A stretch of 64,000 nt of DNA, taken from the NCBI GenBank assembly GCA_030248065.1, contig JASAMV010006037.1, positions 1-64,000 of the forward strand. Direction: 5' to 3'. Position numbers and translations under genes: made by a program. This DNA is from Rhynchonema sp. JSB1_4 (lineage: Eukaryota > Nematoda > Chromadorea > Monhysterida > Xyalidae). Shown in pieces: positions 15,601 through 39,400 of the stretch (position 1 is its first letter; the number at the start of each line of letters is the position of its first letter). The notes beneath the pieces were generated by a model. It was not told the DNA's origin and did not search any database. It worked only from the letters and a program-made list of their open reading frames with translations.

Positions 15601-16037
15601 CAGTGTTGGAGGTACTCTGGAGGGGGGGATACCTACTGTACCGCGCTCGGAGAGGGGGGGATACCTACTGTACCAGAGCCGATGGCCTGGGGGGGTTGGG
15701 GGGGGGGTTAGGTTTTGGGGTGAAATTTTTTTTATGTGTTTATTATGTGTGGAATCGTGTGAAAACGTGGTATTTGCGCGCGTAGCGCGCGAATTTCGTG
15801 TAATTTGAGGTAAAAACCACTGATTTTGCACTAATTTTGGCCATTTTGGTCAAAAATTGACACTTTTGGGGCAAAATCGGGGGGATACCTACTGTACCGG
15901 GGTGAAAATCGGGGGCGGGGGGATACCTACTGTACCATGCCAAACATCGGGGGGGGATACCTACTGTACCAGGCGAGGGGGCGATACCTACTGTACTGGG
16001 GGGGGCTACCCCCCAAACCCCCCCACCTCCAACACTG
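15601..16037. mobile_element. hAT-like MITE, family B (copy B1), inserted in the LINE
   Basis: 437 bp, CAGTGTTGGAGGTA to CACCTCCAACACTG, exact 8-bp duplication TTTCCCTG (15593-15600, 16038-16045). Interior repeats 'gatacctactgtacc' and the palindrome GCGCGTAGCGCGC. Confidence 0.9.
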
Positions 16038-17133
16038 TTTCCCTGCCCACCCAAAATTTAATTCTCACTGAAACTTATCGCCCTCCTAACTACCTCGGTT
16101 CAAACTCCGCTCTTTTCAGGGATTTTCTTGGACATTTTGAGAAAATCTTTGTATTGAGTGATCCCTGTATCCTTTTTGGTGACCTAAATCTCCCAAATAT
16201 TAATTGGCCCTTCTTTTCTGCACCCTCCCAAACAGAAAAATTATTTTTGGAAACTATCCAGACTTCTGGCGCTGCCCAATTAGTCAACACTCCAACTCGT
16301 GGTCCAAATTTATTGGATTTGGTTTTTGTGACCGACACCACCAAAATCACCCAAGTTGAGGTGCCCACTAGTCTTGGAGACGTTGAGAGCGACCATCGTC
16401 CCGTCTGGCTCACAACCAGTTATACGACATCCAAATGTCGTAAAATTACACGTTTTCGGAACTGGGGACGAGCCAAATGGGACGTGATGGAAGCATTTCT
16501 TTCTTTCAATATCCCCTGGGATGAAATTCTTTATGGCCCTTTTTCTGACCCTCTATCTACCTGGGATGCTATCAAATTAGCATGCCAAATGGCCATTAAA
16601 GAATTTGTACCCATCTCACGCGTCTCCTCGACAACCGGGTATATGCCCGATTGGTCGCCTCAGCTTTCTCGCCTGCGTAGAACTGAGTCCCGTCTGCGCT
16701 CGCGCATGCATCGGGAACCAAATATCAACACCTATTATTCCCGTTCCCGTGCAAAATCTCTCGCATCATTCGCCGACGCAAGCGGAGCTGGGTCCGTAGG
16801 CGGGAACAGTCGTTGGTCACAAATCCAAGCCCAAAAAAGTTTTGGAGTTAGATCAGACGCAAAATCAGCCTTAGGACTGATCTTCCTGATGTAACTGACA
16901 CCGATGGCGTGCTGCACACAGAGGACACCATTTTTTTCCGAAAAAAATGCTCGTTTTTTTCTTTTTTTCCTCGATCACCATTTGTTTCATTTTTTTGTTT
17001 CCTTTTTTATTGCCATTTTTTTCCTCGGAAAAAAAGGAAAAAATGAAATATTTTCTCATTTTTTTCCTTACTATCTCTGAGAGAAAGTCCTCGTGCTGCA
17101 CTGCACATACACCACGTTACACATTACCCAATT

Positions 17134-30457: not shown

Positions 30458-33400
30458 ATGCAAAATCTGCGGCAGATTTTCGCAGAAGCATTTGCACCGA
30501 CGAGGGACCTGTTGATCGATCGGTTTGTGTCAGCGTCTGCGCCTGTGTCCGCACATGCGAAGCAAATTATTAAGTCCAAGCTCAGCAAGGTTGGTGCTTA
30601 AACCGGAATTCGTTTGCGCTTAGTTTCCCGTCCCATTCTGCAGATGTCGCAAACGACAGAATGCTATGAACATGGTCCACCGAAATACAGGTGCCGAATG
30701 ATCGGTGCACACTTGCAATCCGGGTTTTTGCCATTTTTACTGGCTCACTAAGCCAGCAAAAAAATTTGGTATGAGCCAGTGGATCTGGACAGTTGAAAAA
30801 TCTCTGCTTGCAATATAGGAACGTCCATGAAAACATGTTATCTTTCAAACTTTGGAGTCAACCATAGGATAGCAGCACTGTTTATCTCACAAACTACCCT
30901 AGATGCGGAAATTGAGTTGTGGGATCAACAACGAGTTATCCAGCCGTTGCCCAACATACTCAGCCACACACAGCAATGCACCCAAGATCGCACCCACGCC
31001 GAGCAGAATGAACGGTGCCGCGAGAGTGGTCATTGTCAGTTCCATTTTCGTCATCCGCCCAAGATCATCATTCGGGCACATGACGGACTTTCGCGGCAGG
31101 AAATGCCTCAGATACCGCTGATCGATCCCTTGCATCACCGAGTGACTGTTCATGATGGCGCGATTGAATCGGTCGAGAAACGGCTTGGAAACGTTTTTGG
31201 CGAACGCAAATCCTATTGGTGTACCTATGCCGGCACTCTCGGTCAGCTGCACAGCCCGATGGGCGCATGAGATCGATGCGCGGTACTTCATGTCCCATTC
31301 GATGATGATTTCGACGAATCTTTGCATTGACGTTGACTGCTGCGTTTGCAGCATATTGTGTTGTGCCACGGTTGGAGCGATTAGAGGATTGTGCTGAGTT
31401 GCACTGCTCAGCCAAACGTCACGCTCAATGAGCGCTATGGCGTGACTATTCGCACTAGACAATACATTCTTTCCAGATTCCACGAGCCGTGCTAATTCCT
31501 GTATGTTGTTGAATCTGAAATCGTCGACAGGTTTGTTGTCATGCGTCGAGCTGACCACACAATCACAGCTGGTATAAAAAGTCAGTTTATGTGGACGAAC
31601 TTCCAACCGACCTGTAAGATTCGGTCGGCACGAGCAAGCATGCCAGCAGCGAGCTACGAAACAACGTCAGCACTATCGCCAGCAACAGTGTGGCTCCGAA
31701 CCGAGTATCGCTCGGCCTAGTGGGCACGGTATTCAGCGTTCGCTGCAACCGACGATGTGCATGGAGAAACACGAAACAGGCCGCAATGGCTGACACCGTG
31801 TCGAAATCGAAAACGGAGGCCAAGCGATAGATCGAATTGATGGCGCTCCTCTCGTGATGCACGTAATCGAGTGCGTAGAGCGCATCCGACGCCTCTGCAC
31901 TCGGGATCGTGTCACTGAAGGTCACGTAACGGGCACGACCCGACGTTATGTACGCTGTGCCCACAAATGTATCCACGCCTGCCGTCTAAACCAGGTGGTG
32001 CTAAAAATTAGTTCATTGAAGCATTCCTTAGTTTGACATCCATTTCCGCATCCGTTACCTGATTTCCTATCGACTGTAAGATGTCGATGAATGCGCTTCC
32101 CGATGGTCGGGGAACGAGTTTTGCTTTCAAACCCATTGATTTCAATATCGCATCCATGAACTCCGCTTCAATACCAGGATATGGACATTTTTCTGTTCGT
32201 TCCAAGCCCGATTCGATCGAACATGGAAACATAAACGGCGGGTAGCTGTCACTCATAATTTTAACTTCACTGACGTTACCTGGCACTGGCACTAGCATAT
32301 TTTAGTGGATTGTCTACCATGGGTTGTTGAGATTATAATGATGACTGACTCTCTGAAATTCACTCAACCAAGAACATGTTTGACAAAAACCGGAAAATTA
32401 GGAACGCGCCAATCTTTTCTATTTACACAGAGGATCGGTGGCTCAGTGCAAAAGTGTTTACCATAGCTGAACATTAATAAAGCTGACGACGTCTCATGTT
32501 TCATTTTGTCACTTGCACCTAACGGCTTACTCGGAAATGTTTTTAATATTATACATCACGCTGCGCATACCATCCCTGATCAGTTCAGTGTGGACTGGGG
32601 TGATGCACATGTAGTCCAACCACGACCTCATGAGACATTTTTTTAAAGTTGGCTTGGCCATGTCCGATAATGTTCCGGAGTAACGTTATTCAACGCACAA
32701 ATGTTGTAAGAGTCAAAAGGAAATTTACGCACCAAAGTGGAGAGCGTGTTTTTATCAAATACCTGCGTTTCTCTTTCTTTCGTTTTCGAAATACGTGGAA
32801 CCGGAACATTATTGGATCTGGCCAACCAAGCTTCAGAAAAAGTGTCTCATGAGCATTTTGGTGGACTATGTTGGTCACGTGTCACCACGCAGTGACACGC
32901 AGTGGTTTCCTTTTTTGTTACCATATTCCAGATGCTCGACTACAACATTCCCGGTGGCAAAAACGAACGCGGTCTGCTGTTTCTCCGCTCATACATGGCA
33001 CTGAACTCACGGAGCAATAATATTTTGCCAGACAAGGTCTTCAGACTGGGATGGGCGCACGAAATGGTGGGGTGGACAGTTGTTTCGTCATGCTGTTCGT
33101 TTGATTTGTTGCAAACGACCGAATCAGCACTTGTTTTCCAGTTTCAAGCCTATTTCCTGGTGGCCGACGATATTATGGACGGTGGAAAGCTGCGTCGCGG
33201 AAAGCCTTGCTGGTTCAGGCAGGTATGATCAGTCATGTTTCAAGAGCTTTTTTCTGACAACCGGCATTTTATCATTCTATAAACCAAACATTTTCGTTTC
33301 ATCCTTTAGCCCTCAATCGGTCTCGGTGCCGTCAACGATGTCTTTCTGCTCGAACGATTAATTTCAATGAACATTCGCTGTGACTGGCCTACGAATCAGG

Positions 33401-36400
33401 CTGAGCAATTGGTGCAGGCGTTTGACAATGTACATATGGTGCTATTTTCTAGGATGCATTCTGGGTAGTGATATGTTGAGAGACTTATTCCGAAGATGGC
33501 CTGATTCAGCCATTGTCTGTATGTTTTTATCAAAAAATCGCCCACGGCGCTTGGTGCACCAAGTGATCACCAGGTGTGTTCACACAGGCGAATCGTCAGT
33601 AAGAACACACCAGATGGCCACGTGACCTCAACACATGAGAGCAGATGTTATTTTAGTGCTCTGATGAAACAGTGCAAACAGTTCGCCCGTTGCAGTAGCT
33701 GTCACCTCCTCGTGGTGACGGGTGGAAACGATCAAGGTTAAGAGCTAGCCTAGCCAAGATCGGCCAAGCACAGCTTCACAGCTCAACACAGAGTTTGCCA
33801 CCACAGTCGGCAACGGACGCCCGCCAGTGCTTTACCATCTCTGCTTTCCTTTTTCACCCCTGGCCACAGCACACGACAATAGCCACAGAGTTCCTAACAG
33901 TTTAATGGAGCGAAGACGGCCTGCATGGGCAGAGGGCCGTTGGACCAGATCTCCCCAAACTAGCCATGGGCATGGGAAGGCACAACCACAAAATGGCCCC
34001 GGTACCGTGCAATGGGGTGCTAAGAATCTCACGGGCATTACCCTCTACTAACACACCTCATGTTAATCCCCCTAGTACTAACACAAGACAGTTTCATAAC
34101 AGCTCCGTACAGCGACCACGTGCACAACAGAAAAGAACTCAAAGGTCCGACACAGAGTTCCTGCAGATAAACCTGCAACACAGCAGGGGCGGGACATCTG
34201 TCCTTAACCAAAACATCTCTAGACACAGCTCGGTCATAGCCCTGATACAGGAACCTTGGATCGTCAAAAACGCCATCAGAGGATTTGACAAAAACAGAGC
34301 GACAACTCATGCCTGCGAGGGAGACCAGCCACCCCGGGCGTGCATAGTGACCAAAAACGTCAGGGCGGTAAAACTGACTCACCTGTGCGACAGAGATACG
34401 GTTGTAATCAAGGCAAGCGTCAAAGATCGTGAGATTGTGATCATTTCCAGCTACCTGCCGCACGACCAAGCCATACCGAGCGCAATGCTGACGGTCGCCG
34501 TTGACTACGCGACAACGCATCGCATGCCAATCATCCTCGGCACCGATGCAAATGCTCATCACGTTGCCTGGGGCAGCACAAATACGAACAGGCGGGGCGA
34601 GCATTTTCTACAGTGGTTGGTCACCACAGATTTACAAGTTCTGAACAGGGGTAACGAACCGACATTTGTAACGCAGAGAAGAATGGAAGTTTTGGATATC
34701 ACTCTCGCATCACAGGCCATAAAGAGCAAAATAAAACAGTGGCGAGTGGACCAAAATGAGTCCCTCAGTGACCACAAGCAGATCCACTTCTCGCTGTCAG
34801 ACGCGAAAAGTGAAACGGCCTATATCCAAAATCCTAGACGCACAGACTGGGCACAGTACTCCTCACTACTATGCGAGTCGCTAAAACCGGAAAGCCCCCC
34901 TAACTCGCAGGAGGAAATAGAATCGGCCGTGAATAGATTGACCTCACAGCTCAACACAGCTTTCAACGCAGCATGTCCACGCAAAAAGGTAAGACTAGAC
35001 CGAAACTCGAAAGTCTGGACACCCGAACTGTCCCAACTCAAACACAGGTCTAGGAAGCTGTGGAGAGTGTACTTCCGCACGCAATCCCCAGACGATTGGG
35101 ACAAGTACAAAGCAGCCAAAACAGAATACAGAAAAGCCTATCGACAGGCGAACACGGCCGGGTGGAGGAACTTCTGTTCCGAAGTCACATCACAGCACGT
35201 GACGGCCCGCCTGTACAAAGCCATCACTATCGAAAGTAGCCCTCAGCTGGGCATGCTAAGGAAACCAGACGGCAGCTACACCAAGACGGAACAGGAAGCG
35301 CTACAGTTACTGCTACAGTCACACTTTCCAGGTTCCATTACGGTTGCAAATATGACGACACCCTCAAATTCGACAGTGGCCGGTCCAACCACGTCAGCAC
35401 ATCGGTCGGCCGACTGGACAATAGCCGGTAACGTTGTCACAGTTGAGAAAACAGTGTGGGCCCTGGGCCAGTTTCAACCATACAAATCAGCGGGCACCGA
35501 CGGCATTTTCCCCGCACTCTTACAGTACGGCGCGAAAACGATCGCAGAGCCGCTGACAGCGATTTTTCGGGCATGTCTTGCTCTGAACTACGTTCCAAGC
35601 AGCTGGAGAGAGACCAAGGTCATCTTTCTCCCAAAAGTGGCGAAGCAGGACTATGGTGACCCAAAGTCTTTTCGACCCATTAGCTTGTCATCATTTCTCC
35701 TAAAAACGCTTGAAAGACTAGTGGACAGATACATCAGGGACACAGCTTTGATTACTGCTCCTATCAGCCCAGCTCAACATGCATACCAACCAGGCAAATC
35801 CACGGAGTCAGCTCTGCACAGTCTCGTGGATGTCATAGAACACACAATAGATAGAAAGAAAACAGTATGCGATTGTTGCTTTCTTCGATGTGCAAGGGGC
35901 CTTCGATCACGCCAGCCACGGCCTTATCAGACAAGAACTGAGAAGCCGCAATCTACCTGAGGCAATAGTTGAATGGATATTTTTCATGCTGCAACACAGA
36001 ACAGTGACCGCTACCCTCAACAGCCGCAGCGTCACCGTCCAAACCACGCAGGGCTGTCCACAAGGGGGAGTCATGTCACCCCTCCTGTGGTGCCTGATCA
36101 TGGACATCCTGATCAGAATCACACAGGCTCAAACAGACCTTCACATTCAGGCATACGCCGATGATGGGGTACTGGTATCAACGGGCTCCGATTTATCGAA
36201 AATGTGCTCCGATATCGAACAGGCACTGAACAATGTGCAAAGCTGGTGTCGGCAAAACGGACTGGACATCAACGCAGGAAAGACAGAAGTCATTGTCTTT
36301 ACCAGGAACAGGAGCAGACCCGGCCTTCGGCAAATCACGCTAGGGGGCACCCAATTAGCATACTCAGAGACAGTAAAGTACCTGGGGGTACTGTTGGACG

Positions 36401-39400
36401 AGAAACTGCTGTGGAGACCACATCTGGACAAGCAGTGCAAAAAAGCTGTTGTCGCCCTAATCCAGTGCAGACGAATGGCTGCAGCAAAATGGGGACTACG
36501 ACCAAAAATATGCCTCTGGCTGTACAACAGCATCTTAAAACCGATGCTGGGCTACGGCGCCATAGTGTGGTGGAACCGCTCACAGCTAAAAACAGTTCAA
36601 AAACAGCTGAGCTCAGTTCAGAGGTTGGCGTGCCTCCTGATAACAGGTGCCATGAAAACCACACCGACTAAGGCCCTCGAAACCTTAATCAGCCTGCCCC
36701 CGCTGGACCTGTGGGTCCAGGGGGAGGCAATGCTTTCAGCTGCCCGCCTCACAACTGCCGGCGTATGGCAACCGCGAAGCAGGGCGGGGCACAGTACAAT
36801 CACGCGACTGACAAACCGACATGTACCACGGATCTTATGGCCGTCGGACGCTCAGGTTGCCAAATACAGGTTTGGGGATAGCTTTACAGTACGATTGACA
36901 GACCGGGATTTCTGGAGAGACAAAACGACCACATATTTTGAACAAATAGAGGGTATCAAAGTGTTCACAGATGGAGCCAAACACCCTGTAACAGGGAGAA
37001 CGGGATATGGAATAGTCATGGAGAACGAATGCGTCAGCGGTGGTCTAGGCACCACCTGCACAGCTTTCCAGGCCGAACTATACGCAATCATATGCGCGGC
37101 CCAACAGTTGCTCGAAAACAGCACAGGCCCCAAAAGTATACACATATTCACGGACTGCAGGTCGGTCCTGCAAGCGCTCAGCGCGCACAAAGTACAATCA
37201 AAATTAGTATCGGAAGGCGCCACTGTGCTAAATCGACTGGGCGAACAACATAAAGTCACTCTAACATGGATTCCGGGCCACAGCGGGTTCGACGGCAACG
37301 TCCGTGCCGATCGCCTAGCGACCGCTGGCCGATCCCAATCACAGACCGGACCAGAGCCGACGTTTGGCATCAGTAAGTCAGCATCAAGATCAGAGGTAAG
37401 AACATGGCTGTTGACACAGTTGCTAAAACGGTGGGACGAGGAAGATCAGTGCAGGCACAGCAAACAGTTTATCACAGGGGTGGACACGCGCAAAGCGCTG
37501 GAGTGTCTCTCTCTCTCACGAAGGGACCTCAGATCTATTGTGTGCATGTACACAGGTCACAGCCCACTAAACAGGCACCTAACCAAAATGGGCCTCAGAG
37601 ACGACCCAACCTGCACCACTTGTGGCGAAGAAGAAACAGTCGAACATTTTCTGTGTAAGTGCCTCGGCTTGAAAAACATCCGAAAACGAACCTTGGGCGC
37701 AGAAACAATCACCCTGGATGAAGCCCGCGACACTAAAGTGTCCTGGGTGGCCGAATTTATTAGGGAGACTACACGTTTTGATTAGAATTTCGGCATAGTG
37801 CAGCATAGAAATAGGAACAGTCCTGTCACAGTTAGCACACATCACACAATGAACGGGGATCTGTTCTACACAGAATAATGGTCTCCAAGTTGCTGGGCCT
37901 GTGTAAAAATCCCTACCATGGGGTTCCACACTGGCGCGGCTACGCCGCGCCTGCCCACGAATCATCATCGCAAACAGTTCGAAACAGACAATTCAAAATT
38001 ACGATTCTCCAGATAAATCGCGACACGGCTTGTGGCCAACTTCTGGATGTTGATGAAACAAAGCCCGATGATTTCACCCTCGATTTGTACAGTACGGTGG
38101 TGCGACTGAAGACCAGCATGTACACATTTGTGCTGCCCGTTGAAAGTGCACTCATATTGGTCGGTTTGCTAGTTTGCCTTTTTTGTGTTCCTATAAATTT
38201 AGCAAGCTTATACTTTCAGACGGATCGATTCGACCTGCTGCATTCCTGCCGACAACTTGGTTGCGAACTTGGATACTATTTTCAAGCTCAGGTCAGTGTT
38301 CACCAGTGTGCAGCAGAGTTTTTTTTTCAAGATGAGCCACTGGCTCACCACTGGTTTATATTTGTCAAAATCTACTGGCTCATTTTAAAAGTTTAAAATT
38401 TAAACTGTTTTGCGATTGCTTTAGTATGTTTTTGCGCGCCAAGATTGTAAACAGTGTGTTTTGGCCTGAAAATTGACGGTAATCGCTCGTAGCGCAAAAA
38501 TTTGACATTTTGCACCACCGATTCCTACGAAAAGGTTCGTTTTGAAGAATTTTGCAGGTTTTTTGTCTGTGCTCTGTGCAGCACAGTGTGTATCACACTT
38601 TGGTTACTGACAGGGAACGTATTCAGAGAGAAAACCCCTGGCGTGCAAACAGAGGCCTGACAGTTGTGGTATGAACCTTGTGTTATCATGCCCCTTGTTG
38701 AGCGTTATCACTTATTGAAACAATTTTTACACAAAAATGCTTTCGGCAGGACGACTACCTGGACTGTTTCGGTGACCGTGCCAACGTGGGCAAAGACTCG
38801 CAGGACATCCAGAATGGCAAATGCTCGTGGCTGGCTGTGATGGCTGCGCAGCACTTGAGCAACGATGAACATTTGTGGAGAGAGTTTGTGGTGAGTCGGA
38901 ATAGATTAATAGACAGTTTGGGTGGTTGGACCTTCAATTTCGCCAGTTATATGTAATTGAACGTGCTGGGGCTTTGGTCGGACACGGTGTTTGACAGCTC
39001 ATCTTCGTGTGCAATTTTGTTCAGTTTTGACTTCTTCGAAAAGCACAACGATTTTCCTCACATCAAACAGTCACTGCTTGCGCAAACACCGTAAAGCATC
39101 GTCGTCGTCGTTAGTACAGTGCCCAGCACAGACACTGGCTCTGTCCGAGACACACGCAAAATACTTGCTGTAACATTACGGCGCAACACTGAAACAAGTT
39201 TCATGCAAATTTGCTACCGCGTAAAATACCAAAAAGTTCTGCACAGCACACTACCAACTTTGGTGCCAAGAAGACCACGTGGTGTTTGAAAGTTTTATGA
39301 CCCTGTCAAGGCTGTTGGACACATGCAAGTGATTGAGTGTCCAATTCTTGATTTCCATAACCTTACTGCTCAGTACTGGCGCACGTGTTTGAAGGGAAAG

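Follow-up and report, generated by a model that had tools for sequence, protein, structure and literature searches.

A predicted HDV-like self-cleaving ribozyme at the exact 5′ end of a Lian/LOA-type LINE within an FDPS intron of the nematode Rhynchonema

The window analysed here, a stretch of 64,000 nucleotides (nt) from the forward strand of contig JASAMV010006037.1 (assembly GCA_030248065.1) of the nematode Rhynchonema sp. JSB1_4, is part of contig C3696 in a genome of 203.9 Mb. It carries a farnesyl diphosphate synthase (FDPS) gene, one intron of which holds a LINE in the sense orientation (Table 1). This placement had been proposed in an earlier note and holds: one coding exon ends at 33429 with ...EQLVQAFDN, the next starts at 38013 with INRDTACGQLLD... 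after a CAG acceptor, and the junction is in frame. Translations of the exons, once joined, align with farnesyl diphosphate synthases over 98% of their length, with the best matches, which include springtail and plant proteins, at 42–44% identity.

Table 1 Features of the FDPS–LINE locus, in window coordinates
Feature	Position	Strand	Details
FDPS coding exon (part translated), upstream of the LINE	33316–33429	+	Donor GT at 33430
5′ target-site duplication	33674–33685	+	GCAAACAGTTCG; its final G is also G1 of the ribozyme
LINE, Lian/LOA type	33685–37969	+	4,285 nt; (ATC)n 3′ tail
HDV-like self-cleaving ribozyme (predicted)	33685–33775	+	Full helix set, RF02682 match and descriptor
Predicted cleavage site	Between C33684 and G33685	+	
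P1	33685–33691 with 33717–33723	+	7 bp; first pair G33685–U33723
P2	33697–33702 with 33770–33775	+	6 bp
P3 hairpin	33704–33716	+	3 bp, 33704–33706 with 33714–33716
L3	33707–33713	+	TCCTCGT
P1.1	33708–33709 with 33724–33725	+	2 bp, CC with GG
P4	33729–33762	+	33729–33733 with 33758–33762, AA/AA loop, 33736–33740 with 33751–33755
J4/2	33764–33767	+	C-C-A-A; first base is the predicted catalytic cytosine C33764
Predicted general-acid cytosine	C33764	+	
Reading-frame piece 1 (stop to stop)	33906–35960	+	AP-type endonuclease and start of RT
Reading-frame piece 2, other frame	35851–37785	+	RT, RNase H, weak zf-RVT
3′ target-site duplication	37970–37981	+	GCAAACAGTTCG
FDPS coding exon (part translated), downstream of the LINE	38013–38162	+	Acceptor AG ends at 38012, 43 nt past the LINE

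Pfam domains occur in the LINE in the order endonuclease (PF14529), reverse transcriptase (RT; PF00078) and RNase H (PF00075, E 1.4e-17), which is the order of a LOA-clade LINE and bears out the RNase H that had been claimed for this element. Among 27 protein matches to an RT–RNase H query, the best match named as a retrotransposon is the Lian-aa1 retrotransposon protein, aligned over 99% of the query at 38% identity. Judged by the name of this best match and by domain order, the window LINE resembles Lian/LOA elements, Lian being presumably a member of the LOA clade. The reading frame of the window LINE is interrupted at 35851–35960, where the frame shifts within the RT domain; in some Lian/LOA-like relatives from this genome, open frames exceed 1,200 amino acids. 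Judged by eye, the translation of an open frame elsewhere in the window (15824–16894) resembles a LINE endonuclease from another family.

The first nucleotides of the LINE can be drawn as an HDV-like ribozyme. Members of this family fold as a nested double pseudoknot and are cut at the first nucleotide of P1 (PMC4908430), the first base of J4/2 is the catalytic cytosine (PMC10879173), and a G and a U in L3 pair by a reverse wobble (PMC3774820). All of the sequence features so described are present at 33685–33775: every helix of the nested double pseudoknot (P1, P2, P3 and P1.1, with P4 optional) forms in the window copy, J1/2 is 5 nt long, and both reverse-wobble bases of L3 are there (T33707 and G33712). 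Each helix was found where the earlier note had drawn it, including the leading G–U pair, the L3 sequence and the J4/2 letters; only the extents change, P1 being better drawn with 7 bp and P3 with 3 bp, as in the Rfam model. The minimum-energy nested fold of the segment is another structure (z −0.78); this method works without pseudoknots, so nested energy folding cannot settle an HDV-like fold.

In a scan of 451 nt against all 4,227 Rfam families, RF02682 (HDV-F-prausnitzii) matched 33685–33773 from end to end (model positions 1–74 of 74) with 27.1 bits and E 0.0045, and no other HDV-like model was reported at an E of 10 or less. The model was built without this LINE, and in our reading of the alignment three P1 pairs differ from its consensus on both sides yet still pair. 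The match is complete, but the family is named for a bacterium and the score lies below its gathering cut-off of 44 bits, so the window sequence is not a member; a whole-window Rfam scan at gathering cut-offs listed nothing. Over the 203.9-Mb genome, RF02682 gave 18 listed matches at E up to 1 (61 of 12,458 candidates scored), the best at 29.1 bits and none above the cut-off. All 18 are 5′ ends of this LINE family, the window copy not being among them. Each of these matches alone has an E of 0.16 or more, and the weight therefore lies in all 18 falling on one family at one position. A scan of the same genome with RF01788 (33 of 3,789 candidates scored) reported nothing at an E of 10 or below, and viral contigs, sought by protein and by pattern, were not found.

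Searching both strands of the window with a strict HDV descriptor gave exactly one site; 100 windows simulated with first-order base statistics yielded no site. With the J4/2 cytosine it matched once in the window and in 46 of 95 loci, many of which overlap each other or the window; with that cytosine replaced by A, G or T, it matched nowhere in the window and in none of the 95 loci. The descriptor was written after the candidate had been seen and many of the loci overlap, which makes the Rfam result the independent one. These scans bear on whether a LINE 5′ end merely resembles an HDV-like ribozyme by chance. Such a resemblance would fit a score under the gathering cut-off and genome-wide matches that are individually weak, but not the empty simulated windows, the confinement of all listed genome matches to one position of one family or the empty J4/2 substitution control, and we regard it as extremely improbable. 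The sequence appears instead to be a ribozyme that Rfam's curated cut-offs overlook.

The 5′ edge of the element was read separately, from target-site duplications. In the window, the duplication GCAAACAGTTC(G) at 33674–33684/5 and 37970–37980/1 agrees with the 5′ edge of the ribozyme, so that the predicted cleavage site and the LINE edge coincide, as had been claimed. Both ends could be read by script in 13 insertions, counting duplicated loci once; the 3′ ends of the remaining insertions were unreadable in the stretches used. The duplication ends exactly before G1 in seven of the 13 (C1486, C5548/C4721, C1816, C4139, C1962, C1238 and C2243, with one mismatch each in C1816 and C1238). A single shared base, which leaves the edge at that base or at G1, is seen in three more (the window, C5395 and, with one mismatch, C981); two or three extra bases separate the duplication from G1 in two (the C611 group and C3006), and no target duplication was seen in one (C609). 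Insertion sites are varied and the duplications measure about 9–14 bp. Used as a DNA query, the first 366 nt of the LINE returned 36 matches, 30 of which start at query base 1–5. Five of the others we interpret as the second parts of interrupted elements (C1830, C832, C4588, C981 and C4642) and the sixth as a C4588 piece cut by the contig end. Five copies found with a 570-nt 3′ probe (L086, L087, L088, L090 and L091) match only from probe base 277–391 and look 5′-truncated, so not every copy is full length.

Copies were compared in an alignment of 23 rows, which still holds the duplicated-locus pairs C5548/C4721 and C611/C375. It omits L007, L008, L010, L022, L025, L030 and L031 (each repeating the flanks or the element of a row already present), L023 (truncated at a contig end), L024 (lacking a 5′ end), C2408 and C4642; a second alignment, of 17 rows, further omits C611, C1668, C391, C609, C2243 and C2996. 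Every core feature is kept in 15 of the 23 rows, the window included, and at least one is lost in the other eight; C5395, for example, has an A in place of the L3 G, and C391 lacks this base. In C1830, J4/2 reads CGAA. The 13 main-family copies diverge pairwise by a mean of 2.1% over LINE bases 1–93, 4.6% over 94–200 and 5.6% over 201–312, the last figure being too high because the C609 match stops at 259. Diverged copies, leaving aside the deletion or interrupted forms C2243, C5746, C981 and C4498, in which later segments are not homologous, show the same gradient: C1238 is 97.4% identical in the ribozyme (76/78) and 65.4% in 94–200, C1633 is 93.8% (76/81) and 72.2%, and both are 66.1% identical in 201–312, a segment partly beyond the end of their BLAST match at 260. 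C3041 agrees, with 93.2% in the ribozyme and 73.3% in the next segment. C1238 and C1633 have each lost part of the ribozyme by deletion and are therefore probably dead. The preferential conservation of the ribozyme segment, together with the edge coincidence in other insertions, supports a function for it.

That function might be of another kind: the roughly 90 nt at the 5′ end could be kept mainly as an internal promoter in the DNA, or as an RNA signal for translation or RNP assembly, with the fold unused or secondary. Conservation alone cannot tell a promoter from a ribozyme, and Pr77 is described (PMC4035085) as an internal promoter and an HDV-like ribozyme at once. The letters conserved here, however, are those of the HDV-like core (the U and G of L3, the CC/GG of P1.1 and the J4/2 C), target duplications adjoin G1 in 10 of the 13 insertions, and a promoter alone need not fit an HDV model; we judge this explanation improbable and retain the self-cleaving ribozyme as the preferred reading.

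Covariation among copies, the check that the earlier note had proposed, is uninformative because the copies are too alike. With P1 and P3 each drawn with 5 bp, none of 27 pairs shows a compensatory double change in the 16 distinct, near-identical rows among 17 aligned copies. One-sided changes that preserve pairing occur at five pairs and 97.6% of cells pair; 441 of 500 shuffles score as high, the pairing being no better than in shuffles because the columns hardly vary. DNA probes from diverged copies, used to seek covariation, brought up no further ribozyme family.

Whether the window copy itself could still be active is a separate matter from the family. The P4 apex of this copy carries a 5-nt duplication (TAGCC) missing in the 22 other aligned rows, and this duplication, the frameshift that leaves two reading-frame pieces and the absence of the copy from the 18 listed RF02682 genome matches would all be expected if the ribozyme were real for the family and the window copy dead through decay. 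Set against this, its core features are all intact, the duplication is apical in P4 and so outside the core, and damage to the ORF leaves the ribozyme unaffected; a dead window copy seems to us quite unlikely.

The ribozyme also heads a set of internally deleted derivatives. In 14 matches, representing about 11 insertions when duplicated loci are counted once, LINE bases 1–312 run straight into the 3′ end, which starts at 37633, across a junction with one G common to both sides; these derivatives are mostly 637–659 nt long, and target duplications flank those whose ends could be read. C2243 consists of bases 1–86, a nearly bare ribozyme, and the last 189 nt (268 nt in total), again with a target duplication, and C5746/C2408 shows a third junction, after base 98. 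The ribozyme is thus kept at three different deletion junctions (after bases 312, 86 and 98), and the derivatives share the make-up of R2 SIDEs: a 5′ ribozyme, the LINE 3′ end and target duplications.

In five regions upstream of other Lian/LOA-like LINEs in the same genome (L079–L083, from three families with 45–47% protein identity, L079/L080 and L082/L083 being near-identical pairs), we found no convincing HDV-like ribozyme, no Rfam HDV-like match and no match to a relaxed descriptor. Model R1 scored L080 at 12.1 bits (E 0.027) and L079 at 9.5 bits (E 0.12), and these matches share the first letters of P1; they were rejected, the L3 and J4/2 letters being missing and support from Rfam and the relaxed descriptor lacking. 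Four further upstream stretches (L092–L095) also yielded no HDV-like ribozyme. The absence in L081 and L092–L095 says little, since the element 5′ ends were not located there. If the absence in relatives holds, the ribozyme would have been gained in the window family or lost in the others. By eye, two of these families seem to have another structured stretch in common near the 5′ end, from base 96 in L079 and L080 and from about base 28–35 in L082 (on the reverse strand) and L083; its stem shows changed pairs, its shared loop contains GGCGAAT, and CGGAAACC comes next. By the tests applied it is not HDV-like.

Very probably, then, the fold, its position, the edge coincidence, the conservation and the derivatives reflect a 5′ ribozyme with which a Lian/LOA-type LINE sets the exact end of its RNA by cleavage before G33685, the derivatives being mobilised in trans. 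The cleavage, its chemistry and its use in the life cycle would run as follows. The HDV-like ribozyme would make up the first ~91 nt of an EN–RT–RNase H LINE; when a host transcript or the element's own reads through the insertion, the RNA would fold as a nested double pseudoknot, C33764 in J4/2 would act as general acid, and the RNA would be cut just before G33685. The cut would free LINE RNA with an exact 5′-OH end, whatever the landing site, and target-primed reverse transcription would copy this RNA to its last base, so that the next insertion again begins at G1. Internally deleted derivatives, which retain both ends (the ribozyme and the 3′ UTR), could then be mobilised in trans.

HDV-like ribozymes at LINE 5′ ends are already in print, and the window family adds to a known type. 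PMC11620745 and PMC3774820 list them for R2, R4, R6, RTE, SART, Baggins and L1Tc, and Baggins is described as LOA-like (PMC3506448). Baggins resembles the window LINE in having an HDV-like ribozyme at its 5′ end and in belonging to the same broad LINE group (PMC3774820, PMC11620745), but it is another family, and the likeness is one of description. A literature search for LOA and ribozyme terms together, most subscription journals lying outside it, found no paper. In R2 of Drosophila, as described in PMC3414825, the ribozyme makes a precise 5′ end, as proposed here, and the short R2 SIDEs combine a 5′ ribozyme with a 3′ end, as do the derivatives of the window family. R2 is specific to rDNA, whereas the window LINE family sits at varied sites. 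The R2 endonuclease also differs in type from that of the window LINE. L1Tc/ingi Pr77 offers a further parallel, a ribozyme within the first 77 nt that is common to an autonomous LINE and short non-autonomous elements (PMC4035085). Its short partners are NARTc, RIME and SIDER, but the hosts are trypanosomatids and the LINE clade is another one. L1Tc, too, carries RNase H. What the present family adds is a Lian/LOA-type, non-site-specific LINE in which the predicted ribozyme, target-site edges and derivatives made of ribozyme plus 3′ end occur in one genome, a clean case for asking whether it is the ribozyme-generated 5′ end that allows short elements to be copied completely.

The ribozyme lies 4.3 kb upstream of the FDPS splice acceptor. 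At mammalian-like speeds this distance takes one to two minutes to transcribe. By analogy with CPEB3, an active ribozyme could sever FDPS pre-mRNA ahead of synthesis of the acceptor, and the locus would offer a natural, predicted intronic ribozyme in a core metabolic gene. CPEB3 likewise has an HDV-like ribozyme in a host-gene intron, but the window ribozyme is at the same time the 5′ end of a LINE. For CPEB3, an effect on splicing has been tested, and PMC10919898 describes an increase in spliced mRNA when the ribozyme is blocked, citing previous studies in which RNA stayed unspliced if its introns carried fast synthetic ribozymes. We consider it possible, though rather unlikely, that cleavage precedes splicing here, in which case the allele would yield less FDPS and the same cut would supply correctly ended LINE RNA, host transcription being parasitised without a promoter of the element's own.

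Two inverted-repeat-like stretches were noticed along the way. Within the FDPS intron, 5′ of the LINE, 33546–33633 appears to form a long imperfect inverted repeat, with weak matches, far under cut-off, to the microRNA models mir-2002 and mir-317. At L045:2002–2085, mir-3927 matches on both strands, also under cut-off, and the stretch is probably the inverted repeat of a mobile element.
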